Shown: piece by piece, positions 38,913-41,809 of the stretch
Layout of the letters: each line of letters starts with the position of its first letter
How positions within the stretch are numbered: position 1 is the first letter of the stretch
DNA from: Candidatus Baltobacteraceae bacterium
GTDB lineage: Bacteria > Vulcanimicrobiota > Vulcanimicrobiia > Vulcanimicrobiales > Vulcanimicrobiaceae
Reading direction: 5' to 3'
Assembly: GCA_036488875.1 (NCBI GenBank)
Contig: DASXGW010000004.1
Location: 372,001 to 436,000, forward strand
DNA length: 64,000 nt
The notes under the pieces: generated by a model
The model's input: the letters and a program-made list of their open reading frames with translations, nothing else
Database searches by the model: none
What the model was told of the DNA's origin: nothing
Program-made: the position numbers and the translations under genes

Positions 38913-39027
38913 AGGGGCTCCTTCGCCATGCCGCAAGCGGACGCCCGGCGCGGCAGGCATGCGCACGTTTAGCGGCTAGGAGATTGGGCTATCGCTCGGG
39001 GAGCATAGCGAGCACAAGGGGACAGCC
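38913..39027. promoter_or_regulatory. 115-bp divergent intergenic region between dacB and borosin-like operon
   Basis: Holds the ribosome binding sites of both flanking genes (AAGGAG for dacB, AAGGGGA for the 91-aa gene) and presumably two divergent promoters. No palindrome or convincing -35/-10 pair stands out. Confidence 0.4.
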
Positions 39028-39303
39028 ATGCCGCATCCGCGACTCACACACTATCTCCTGAAGCTCGCGACCGATCCCGACGAACTCGAGCGGTACAACG
39101 CTGCCGATGAAGACGAGCGTCGTGGTCTGTTGAAGGCCGCCGGCCTCACGCCCGAACAATGCGATGCATTGGCGAGCGCCGATTCCGCTCGCATCACCGA
39201 TGAAGTGATGCTCGAGATGCGAAGCGGACCCAATCCGGCCGGCGGCATGCATTACACGATCCAAGTGCTGCTGGATCTTCACCCGTGCAAAAAGCCCAAG
39301 TAG
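39028..39303 (+). CDS. Candidate split-borosin precursor peptide (LigA-like/BBD helical leader plus C-terminal core)
   Basis: 91 aa with an AAGGGGA ribosome binding site 8 nt before ATG. Residues 5-55 are a compact helical domain (LTHYLLKLATDPDELERY, then LLKAAGLTPEQCDALAS). This has the same layout as the borosin-binding domain of bacterial split-borosin precursors, which are often mis-annotated as LigA-like. A Gly/Pro linker (SGPNPAGG, 66-73) leads to a hydrophobic, beta-branched tail MHYTIQVLLDLHP (74-86), the likely core that would receive backbone N-methyl groups, and then a basic end CKKPK. The 3' 19 bp overlap the methyltransferase gene. Assignment rests mainly on that neighbour. Confidence 0.75.
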   Translation: MPHPRLTHYLLKLATDPDELERYNAADEDERRGLLKAAGLTPEQCDALASADSARITDEVMLEMRSGPNPAGGMHYTIQVLLDLHPCKKPK

Positions 39304-40082
39304 CGAGCGGTTCGCTATGTGCCGTCGGTATCGGGATTCGCGCGCCCTTGCAAACCACCAACGAGACCGCGGAGCGCATCGCACGGGCCGATAAAGTCTT
39401 TTCACTCGTCGCCGATCCGGTTGCGGAACTGTGGCTGACGAACCTCAACGCGAACACCGAGTCGCTCTCGGTTCTGTATCGTACCGGAGTCGAGCGCAGT
39501 CGTACCTACGCCCAGATGGTGGATCGCATCCTCGATGCGGTTCGTGACGGGTTGCGCGTGTGCGCGGTATCGTACGGCCACCCCGGCGTCGCAGCCTATC
39601 CGCTGCACGAATCCGTCAGGCGTGCGCGCGGTGAAGGCTTTGCCGCCGAGATGCTCGCCGCCGTTTCCGCCGAGGATTGTCTGTTCGCCGACTTGGGCAT
39701 CGATCCGATTCACGGCGGCTGCCGCAGCTACGAAGCCACGGACTTTCTGGTGTTCGGGCGCGCAGCCGATCCCGCGAGCAACCTGGTGCTCTGGCAGATC
39801 GGTGCGATCGCCGAACTGTCGTACCAAACCAGTCGCGACGCGTGGAATCCGCACGGCTTAGCGGTGCTGACCGACGTGCTGCTGCAAACCTATCCGGCGG
39901 AGCACGAAGTCGTGGTGTACGAGGCGGCGCGCTTTGCGGCGTGCGCGCCGAAGATCATGCGCGTGCCGCTTGCGCATCTAACGCGAGCCGGCGTCACGCC
40001 GCTGAGCACGCTTTTCGTGCCCCCGTGCGAGCTTTCCACCGTCGACCAAACGATGCTGCGCCGATTGCGGATGCACGCATGA
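39285..40082 (+). CDS. Borosin-type peptide alpha-N-methyltransferase (SAM-dependent, tetrapyrrole-methylase fold)
   Basis: 265 aa from GTG 39285, the only usable start nearby. It aligns throughout with the SonM/OphMA type: GSLCAVGIGI (SAM loop), FSLVADPVAELWL, TYAQMVDRILDAV, CAVSYGHPG, AEMLAAVSAEDCLFADLG, DP...GGCRSYEATDFL, LVLWQIG, EHEVVVYEAA and PLSTLFVPP. The four active-site residues known from OphMA map to Y65, R71, Y75 and Y97. The loop between Y65 and R71 is three residues shorter. The enzyme should methylate backbone amides of the preceding peptide using S-adenosylmethionine. Cobalamin or siroheme methylases share the fold but lack the SAED...FADLGIDP block. The stop overlaps the next start (ATGA). 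Confidence 0.88.
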   Translation: MQKAQVASGSLCAVGIGIRAPLQTTNETAERIARADKVFSLVADPVAELWLTNLNANTESLSVLYRTGVERSRTYAQMVDRILDAVRDGLRVCAVSYGHPGVAAYPLHESVRRARGEGFAAEMLAAVSAEDCLFADLGIDPIHGGCRSYEATDFLVFGRAADPASNLVLWQIGAIAELSYQTSRDAWNPHGLAVLTDVLLQTYPAEHEVVVYEAARFAACAPKIMRVPLAHLTRAGVTPLSTLFVPPCELSTVDQTMLRRLRMHA

Positions 40083-41809
40083 ACCGGTTGCTGCGCATCG
40101 CCGTGGTCCTCGTCGTGGGTGTCTGGATGCTCGGGACGGCGGCACCGCACGTGGCGTGCGTGTGGAGCGCGTGTCCGTCGATCGGCCTTACGCCCAACTT
40201 CGACGGCGTGGTAGGCGCCGTCGACGACGGATCGCCCGCGGCCAAAGCGTCGATACAGCCGGGCGATCGTATCGCGGTTCCGATTCCGCGCGACCTCTAT
40301 CGCGATCCGCCGGTGACGGTAACGTTCGGCGTGATTCACAACGGCGTCACGCGCACGGTTACGCTCGTGCCGGAGGCGCAGTGGCTCGGCGTCGACCTTC
40401 GCCTGCTCGCGCTCAGCGCATCGTACCTCCTGTTTTTGGTGGTCGGGTCTGCGGTGCTCTTGATGCGCCCGAGCGCGATGACGTGGATATTCTACTTGTA
40501 TTGCGTCGTGCGGCGCTTCGGCGACCTCGGCCTGTATTTGCCGGGGCCGGACGACTGGTATTGGGCAAACTACTTTCTGCTGGCCGCCATCGGCGGCGCC
40601 GGTTGTCCGCTGGTTGCCATGTTCGCGCTGCGCTTTCCCAACGATCGGATGGACGGCTGGCGCAAACCGGTCAACGCCGTTGCCGTCGTATTGGCGATCG
40701 TGCTGCCGATCGCGTGGTTTTCGATTTTTTGGCAGTTGAACGGGCGGGGCTTGCCGGTGGGGACCGCAGAAGCGCGGCTCGCGTTCTTTACGTCGATCCT
40801 ATACCTCGGCGCTGCGGCGATCTTCGTCGTGACCTTGCTGCGCAGTCACGGCGACGAACGCCAGCGGATTCGCTGGATCCTCGTGTTTCCGATCGTGCTG
40901 GTCATGCGCGTGATTGCCATCGATTTGCCCTACGGACTGCCGGAATGGTATTCGGGTTTCTTGACCGCACTCGGCGCGCTGATTCCACTGACGGTCGCCT
41001 ATGCGATTATCCGGCGGCGCGTCTTCGATATCGAGTTTGCGATTAGCCGCGCGGTCATTTACGGCGCGATCACGTCGATCGTTGCGGGAACGTTTATTCT
41101 GCTGGACTGGGTCATGTCGGCGCAGTTCAGCCAGTCGCGGCTGACCTTGACGGCGGAGATCATCGTGGCGCTGGCGTTGGGATCGTGGCTGAACATGCTG
41201 CACAAAAGCGTCGACCGGTTCGTGGACGGCACGTTCTTTCGTGCGCGGCACCTGTCTGAGAAGCGTTTATCGCGCGCCGCCTCAGCGGTAATGCGCGCGG
41301 AAACGCACGAGGCGGTTGACCGGTTTCTCGTTCACGAACCGGTCGAAGCGCTGAAGCTAACGTCGGCCGCGCTCTTCCATCGCGCCGGCGACGAACCGCG
41401 TTTCCTGCGCGACATGTCGGTGGGCTGGAACGACGCCGACGTGACCGAGCTGACCGGCGACGATCCGCTCGTGCTGCATTTGCTGGCCGAAGGCGAGCCC
41501 GTGCGCCTGGCCGACGTCGCGTGGTCGACGGGCAGTATGCCTAGCGTCGGTCATGCCGTACTGGCGACGCCGGTGATGCTGCGCGATGAGCTGGTGACGA
41601 TCGTCCTCTACGGACCGCACCGTAACGGCGCCGACATCGATCCCGACGAAGTGCGCAGCCTCACGCACCTCACGCAAAGTGCGGGCGCGTCGTACGATCA
41701 CATCGACGCGCGCGCCTTGCGCGAGGAGCTCGAGGCGCTACTGCTGCAGTGCCAGATCAAGGATCGCGAGCTGGCGGCGCTGCGAACGAAGGCGGGCTCG
41801 ATCGCCTAG
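40079..41809 (+). CDS. PDZ / multi-TM / GAF-like sensor without kinase domain
   Basis: 576 aa. An N-terminal membrane anchor is followed by a PDZ domain (VVGAVDDGSPAAKASIQPGDRI, residues ~42-63), a bundle of about 7-8 membrane helices, the linker RRRVFDIEFAISRAVIYGA, and a cytoplasmic region (VDRFVDGTFFRARHLSEKRL) leading into a GAF-like domain and a coiled coil. The linker resembles that of histidine kinases, but no DHp or ATPase domain follows. Start ATG overlaps the methyltransferase stop by 4 bp, so it is translationally tied to the borosin-like pair. It may sense or export-control the product, or act as a signalling partner; this is inference. Paralog at 52995-54815. Confidence 0.75.
   Translation: MNRLLRIAVVLVVGVWMLGTAAPHVACVWSACPSIGLTPNFDGVVGAVDDGSPAAKASIQPGDRIAVPIPRDLYRDPPVTVTFGVIHNGVTRTVTLVPEAQWLGVDLRLLALSASYLLFLVVGSAVLLMRPSAMTWIFYLYCVVRRFGDLGLYLPGPDDWYWANYFLLAAIGGAGCPLVAMFALRFPNDRMDGWRKPVNAVAVVLAIVLPIAWFSIFWQLNGRGLPVGTAEARLAFFTSILYLGAAAIFVVTLLRSHGDERQRIRWILVFPIVLVMRVIAIDLPYGLPEWYSGFLTALGALIPLTVAYAIIRRRVFDIEFAISRAVIYGAITSIVAGTFILLDWVMSAQFSQSRLTLTAEIIVALALGSWLNMLHKSVDRFVDGTFFRARHLSEKRLSRAASAVMRAETHEAVDRFLVHEPVEALKLTSAALFHRAGDEPRFLRDMSVGWNDADVTELTGDDPLVLHLLAEGEPVRLADVAWSTGSMPSVGHAVLATPVMLRDELVTIVLYGPHRNGADIDPDEVRSLTHLTQSAGASYDHIDARALREELEALLLQCQIKDRELAALRTKAGSIA

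Follow-up and report, generated by a model that had tools for sequence, protein, structure and literature searches.

A probable split borosin operon with a translationally coupled membrane sensor in Candidatus Baltobacteraceae

Genes and translation signals of the locus

The window, the whole stretch of DNA analysed here, comprises 64,000 nucleotides from a Candidatus Baltobacteraceae bacterium (contig DASXGW010000004.1, positions 372,001 to 436,000). A first-pass annotation of these letters had proposed a split borosin operon of three genes, and the three open reading frames exist where it placed them. The precursor frame (39028-39303, forward strand) starts with ATG and is preceded, 5 nt from the start codon, by the sequence AAGGGGA, a good ribosome-binding site. 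The methyltransferase starts with a GTG located within the last codons of the precursor, which results in a 19-nt overlap, and the ATG of the sensor gene at 40079 overlaps the TGA of the methyltransferase, in agreement with the ATGA coupling described there. The features of the locus are the following:

39016-39022, forward strand: Shine-Dalgarno-like AAGGGGA, 5' of the precursor ATG, read from the sequence
39028-39303, forward strand: predicted 91-aa borosin precursor, borosin-binding domain (BBD) leader and tail (profile against SonA, AF2, Foldseek)
39028-39222, forward strand: BBD-like leader, residues 1-65, with five predicted helices in 6-65 (pLDDT ~90; identity 38%)
39223-39300, forward strand: linker and putative core, residues 66-91, ending GGMHYTIQVLLDLHPCKKPK (no predicted structure; identity 19%)
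39285-40082, forward strand: predicted 265-aa borosin alpha-N-methyltransferase, SonM-like (phmmer against PDB; Pfam TP_methylase)
40079-41809, forward strand: 576-aa PDZ-like / ~10-TM / GAF membrane sensor (Pfam, AF2, Foldseek; orthologs in four other borosin cassettes)
40166-40396, forward strand: PDZ-like loop between TM1 and TM2, residues 30-106 (Pfam PDZ_6 9.8e-4, below cut-off; AF2 strands and helix)
41351-41641, forward strand: predicted cytoplasmic GAF domain, residues 425-521 (Pfam GAF_3 0.0025, below cut-off; Foldseek)

On the 5' side of the trio the opposite strand encodes a peptidase S13 and a phosphoesterase, and a beta-helix protein is found on the 3' side; these neighbours look unrelated to it. 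No protease or exporter is recognisable within the trio.

The methyltransferase and its precursor

When compared with all PDB chains by phmmer, the 265-aa protein (METHYLTRANSFERASE) matches SonM (E 5e-58), OphMA (3e-46) and MroMA (1e-35), and the 25 matches at E<=0.01 are all borosin enzymes. The annotation had suggested OphMA and SonM as the reference structures for this protein, and both rank at the top, above any corrin or siroheme methylase. Its residues Y65, R71, Y75 and Y97, pointed out as diagnostic, are aligned with Y58, R67, Y71 and Y93 of SonM, which have been tied to peptide and cofactor handling (PMC8429565); Y65, R71 and Y75 do not vary among 8 aligned relatives. The motifs YGHPG, SAED...FADLGIDP and LWQ are also found in the protein. 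Related to the bottom-lock pair of SonM (F99/W166), the tryptophan is retained as W170, and the position of F99 is occupied by A103 here and by Phe in several relatives. The methyltransferase is single-copy in its 3.7-Mb genome, and a contig scan with a single protein yielded only one distant relative, from Lysobacterales.

It could be argued that the enzyme is a cobalamin or siroheme (tetrapyrrole) methylase of ordinary metabolism, as Pfam classifies it at superfamily level only (TP_methylase, 1.5e-13), a superfamily common to both kinds of enzyme, and NCBIfam matches YabN and a precorrin methylase, both far below cut-off; nevertheless, the exclusively borosin composition of the PDB matches, the active-site Tyr/Arg set and the adjoining BBD precursor make this hardly credible. 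With SonM as the best PDB match and the catalytic set kept, the assignment first given to the middle gene stands: these alignments identify the 265-aa protein as a true borosin alpha-N-methyltransferase.

The 91-aa precursor by itself gave no convincing family match in Pfam, NCBIfam or phmmer against PDB. In the latter search, TAL-effector repeats reached tiny whole-sequence E-values, but the individual matches stayed below 10 bits and were rejected as a repeat artefact; weak matches below cut-off to the Nif11 leader (0.009) and to a DprA SAM-domain were not adopted. A profile built from 8 precursors (that of the window and seven relatives) matches SonA across the leader with an E-value of 1.7e-5. 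The AF2 model contains helices at residues 6-15, 17-25, 28-37, 42-49 and 53-65 (pLDDT ~90) followed by a disordered tail, and the borosin-binding domain of SonA has been described as a five-helix form (PMC8429565). When this model was used as a Foldseek query, ranks 1-8 were all SonA or dbOphMA (6mjf) with probabilities of 0.69-0.97, and the E-values of this very small fold were weak (only 0.23-1.2).

The invariant columns among the eight precursors are all located within the leader, where the mean pairwise identity is 38%, compared with 19% in the tail; across the five cassettes described below the tail identity is 16%. The description of the precursor as a small helical protein with a hydrophobic C-terminal tail is right as to helices and tail and only partly so as to hydrophobicity: GMHYTIQVLLDLHP is aliphatic, but the terminus reads CKKPK. 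The tail of the congener G041 (GGNHFTVQINVELHARKK) follows the same pattern as that of the window; since the pattern is kept between the two (GGMHYTIQVLLDLH compared with GGNHFTVQINVELH), the tail appears to be constrained, not random. From the profile and the model, the 91-aa protein is taken to be a borosin precursor with a BBD-type five-helix leader and a variable tail.

SonM and SonA of Shewanella oneidensis (type IV split, PMC8429565) likewise consist of a separate enzyme and a short adjoining precursor. The enzymes have similar lengths (263 aa in SonM, 265 aa here), and the five-helix BBD leader and the catalytic Tyr/Arg set are also alike. On the other hand, the sequence described here has diverged, with Ala103 in place of the bottom-lock Phe99, the precursor is longer (91 aa) with an unrelated core, and the operon adds a membrane sensor. 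The fungal OphMA/dbOphMA have a homologous methyltransferase (E 3e-46) and the clasp/BBD fold detected via Foldseek (6mjf), but they are fused in one chain whereas enzyme and precursor are separate proteins in this locus. The arrangement is the same as that of class 3 of PMC11395268, in which BBD and core lie in one protein and the methyltransferase in another.

Split borosins are widespread in bacteria and have been sorted into many types, IV-X and 0/XI (PMC11285071, PMC11395268), so that the enzyme and precursor are of a known kind. Thus, the operon reading of the first-pass annotation is upheld for the split type IV-like enzyme, the separate BBD-type precursor and the operon-coupled sensor; its view of a borosin in such a host as a major extension of the class is not, given how widely these systems had already been reported.

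Some related proteins depart from this layout. In family f14 (G134-G138, L045-L049; genomes of 7.7-8.4 Mb from the same phylum) borosin-like methyltransferases with 30-32% identity are found in proteins of 537-579 aa, the C-terminal half of which resembles a further methyltransferase domain that has degenerated, and FPAHPCNSG replaces YGHPG. No BBD precursor was seen near the f14 methyltransferases.

The membrane sensor and the conserved cassette

The AF2 model of the sensor consists of TM1, a strand-bearing loop (30-106), approximately 10 TM helices, a GAF region (425-521) and a long terminal helix; no effector domain follows the GAF, and kinase, cyclase and DNA-binding domains are all absent according to Pfam and NCBIfam scans. 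Pfam GAF_3 matches with an E-value of 0.0025, below the curated cut-off, and Foldseek recovers GAF domains with E-values from 2e-5, so the predicted fold clearly confirms this domain. For the loop, the Pfam PDZ_6 match (E 9.8e-4) is also below cut-off, and the strands of the model fit the PDZ pattern, which suggests a PDZ domain. The PDZ/TM/GAF-like membrane sensor proposed as the third gene is real, its PDZ and GAF scores lying below curated Pfam cut-offs and its GAF being recognised by fold.

Of the 99 genomes in the taxonomic family, 83 contain a relative of this sensor at E<=1e-10; individual genomes have as many as 13 scored places, the number counted in that of the window, and tandem arrays occur in two genomes. 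These arrays, L086 (G083) and L087 (G081), comprise five to seven PDZ/TM/GAF paralogs, mostly with 4-nt overlaps. The paralogs inspected adjoin varied, unrelated genes with no recurrent small ORF, and a peptide link for the sensor family as a whole was discarded on these grounds; as the paralogs are numerous and mostly placed by unrelated genes, family membership alone is uninformative on borosins. The borosin link is confined to one sensor subclade, of which no copy was found away from borosin genes. A plasmid search with the sensor gave only one weak match.

The search for the same gene order in relatives, also suggested at the outset, found the trio in four other genomes: G041, of the same genus as the window, G006 and G010, both of one other genus, and G046, of another, which makes three genera in total. 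Relative to the stop codon of the methyltransferase, the sensor starts at -4 to +13 nt in the five cassettes. In the trees, the five enzymes group as a single clade (support 100/100), as do the five sensors (support 100); the orthologs share 59-64% identity with the sensor of the window, and the next relative 38%. Among these five sensors the PDZ-like loop is the least conserved region outside TM1 (48% identity vs 61% overall). The neighbourhoods outside the trio have nothing in common except some genes with the congener G041, which indicates that the three genes are retained together. The borosin enzyme is detected at E<=1e-10 in only 13 of the 99 genomes of the family, hence the distribution of the cassette is patchy. 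A single joining of the genes in an ancestor may account for its conservation. The SonM match (E 5e-58) and the recurrence of the gene order in four other genomes place the observation far beyond chance.

One objection is that the sensor is a mere passenger, a paralog that became inserted after the methyltransferase gene and is functionally unconnected with it. The sensor family is abundant and occurs in many contexts, tandem arrays included, and all five cases derive from one event; however, the tight coupling (ATGA or <=13 nt) has persisted although the proteins diverged by ~40% and the surroundings became different, and copies of the subclade away from borosin genes were not found, which makes the objection improbable.

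The enzyme family and its catalytic residues, the leader family of the precursor, the gene order, the common descent of the trio and the sensor architecture are computational findings, and the product of the three-gene unit is very probably a borosin, a small peptide methylated on its backbone. The locus can be regarded with good confidence as a type IV-like split borosin biosynthesis functionally linked to a membrane sensor. In the proposed pathway, the SonM-like enzyme would bind the 91-aa precursor by its helical leader, and the variable tail would enter the active site, where selected backbone amides would be methylated at the expense of SAM as in SonM/SonA; the methylation and its sites are predicted by this analogy. 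Export and cleavage of the peptide would follow as presumed steps. The sensor, probably translated by coupling from the methyltransferase, would be a kinase-less receptor-like protein of a lineage-expanded family serving the borosin pathway, and it would either detect the peptide or tie peptide production to another signal.

Signalling genes at borosin loci and possible roles of the sensor

A signalling gene adjoins 17 of the 18 intact borosin loci in the class; due to shared ancestry, these loci do not represent 17 independent events. The neighbours belong to four gene types in several arrangements. In family f3 (L040-L044) an AAA_16-TPR-LuxR (STAND) regulator lies on the same strand, at most ~35 nt after the methyltransferase, in 5/5 genomes (domain scans covered three of these regulators, and the remaining two group with them by BLAST), and each of these genomes has merely 1-4 AAA_16 genes at the threshold used. 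A precursor-like sequence is located 5' of the enzyme at the f3 loci, its frame looking broken in G118 and being cut by the contig end in G127. The AAA_16-TPR-LuxR regulator is placed divergently in G090 and at both loci of G043, a genome whose only two AAA_16 genes above threshold are both at borosin loci. A divergent guanylate cyclase-AAA-TPR protein is found in G068 and G070, an HTH-AAA-TPR protein directly upstream in G093, and in G095 a PDZ-TM-GAF paralog convergent with the methyltransferase.

The sole intact locus of the class without a recognisable signalling neighbour is that of G058. In this locus (L026:8560-9582) the BBD-like leader and the methyltransferase form one 340-aa frame with ~25 residues between them, either a natural N-terminal fusion or the product of a lost stop codon. 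A decayed locus is present in the single-contig genome G086 (L029:10007-10432), where an internal deletion has joined the start of the leader to the second half of the methyltransferase; it still adjoins an HTH-STAND gene.

Outside the phylum, none of the four annotated plasmid borosin loci (two split, from Bradyrhizobium and Legionella, and two in larger fused proteins) lists a signalling neighbour. The Bradyrhizobium plasmid p155_2 (L096:2763-7838) carries in one cluster two borosin-type methyltransferases, a TauD-like dioxygenase, a prolyl oligopeptidase and a BBD precursor whose tail is an Ile/Arg repeat.

Related to the role of the sensor, it may detect an environmental or envelope signal and adjust borosin production or confer immunity without binding the peptide. 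In other loci of the class, borosin genes are paired with typical pathway-specific regulators (AAA_16-TPR-LuxR, cyclase-STAND, HTH-STAND), divergent or downstream, and the sensor family is a general feature of these genomes; nevertheless, the sensor lacks a DNA-binding or other output domain. This role is a serious possibility, although its chances fall somewhat short of even.

A stronger form of the linked-sensor explanation is that the producers sense their own borosin as a peptide pheromone: the N-methylated tail, once cleaved and exported, would bind to the sensor at its PDZ/TM part, as the modified peptide ComX does to ComP. The layout resembles comQXPA of Bacillus (PMC4008528, PMC9620489), where a peptide precursor, its modifying enzyme and a PDZ/ten-TM receptor are encoded in one locus, as the adjacent genes are here. 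In ComP the PDZ is flanked by TM1 and TM2 of a ten-TM region, an order to which that of the sensor may correspond, with a loop after TM1 that has a sub-cut-off Pfam PDZ and AF2 strands, and with ~10 TM helices. This is a likeness of layout only, taken from published descriptions. The modification in Bacillus is prenylation, whereas N-methylation is predicted here, and ComP carries a histidine kinase and is followed by ComA, whereas the sensor has no kinase in the Pfam and NCBIfam scans and its chain ends in a helix after the GAF. Across the five cassettes, the tails of the precursors (16% identity) and the PDZ-like loop (48%) belong to the regions that evolve most rapidly, but loops and tails would be expected to vary even if they did not co-adapt. 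Moreover, the trio includes no exporter or protease, and many unlinked paralogs have the same receptor architecture. The pheromone role is thus considered tentatively, and it is rather doubtful that the peptide itself is the ligand of the sensor.

A literature search revealed no link of borosins to a membrane sensor or to a STAND or LuxR regulator (Imani 2022 and Cho 2022 lay outside its coverage, and priority is not certain), nor any statement on the host role of bacterial split borosins in the papers found. The biosynthetic part of the locus, enzyme and precursor, belongs to the already known split borosins; what is new is the consistent coupling to signal transduction. The presence of a signalling gene almost always beside the borosin genes of these relatives hints at a signalling role of the peptides, and both the conservation of the entire trio in three genera and the other signalling proteins that take the sensor's place in neighbouring lineages point in the same direction. 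A more speculative proposal, which is on balance unlikely, extends this to the phylum: its split borosins would be signals, each methylated peptide being the ligand of a co-encoded receptor, in this case a kinase-less ComP-like sensor and elsewhere STAND-type ATPase regulators.

For backbone N-methylation, the set of loci offers further enzymes of the SonM type and new core sequences, and the locus makes a signalling role directly testable. If borosins do act as signals, this would provide a native role for bacterial split borosins and a new chemical class of peptide pheromone.
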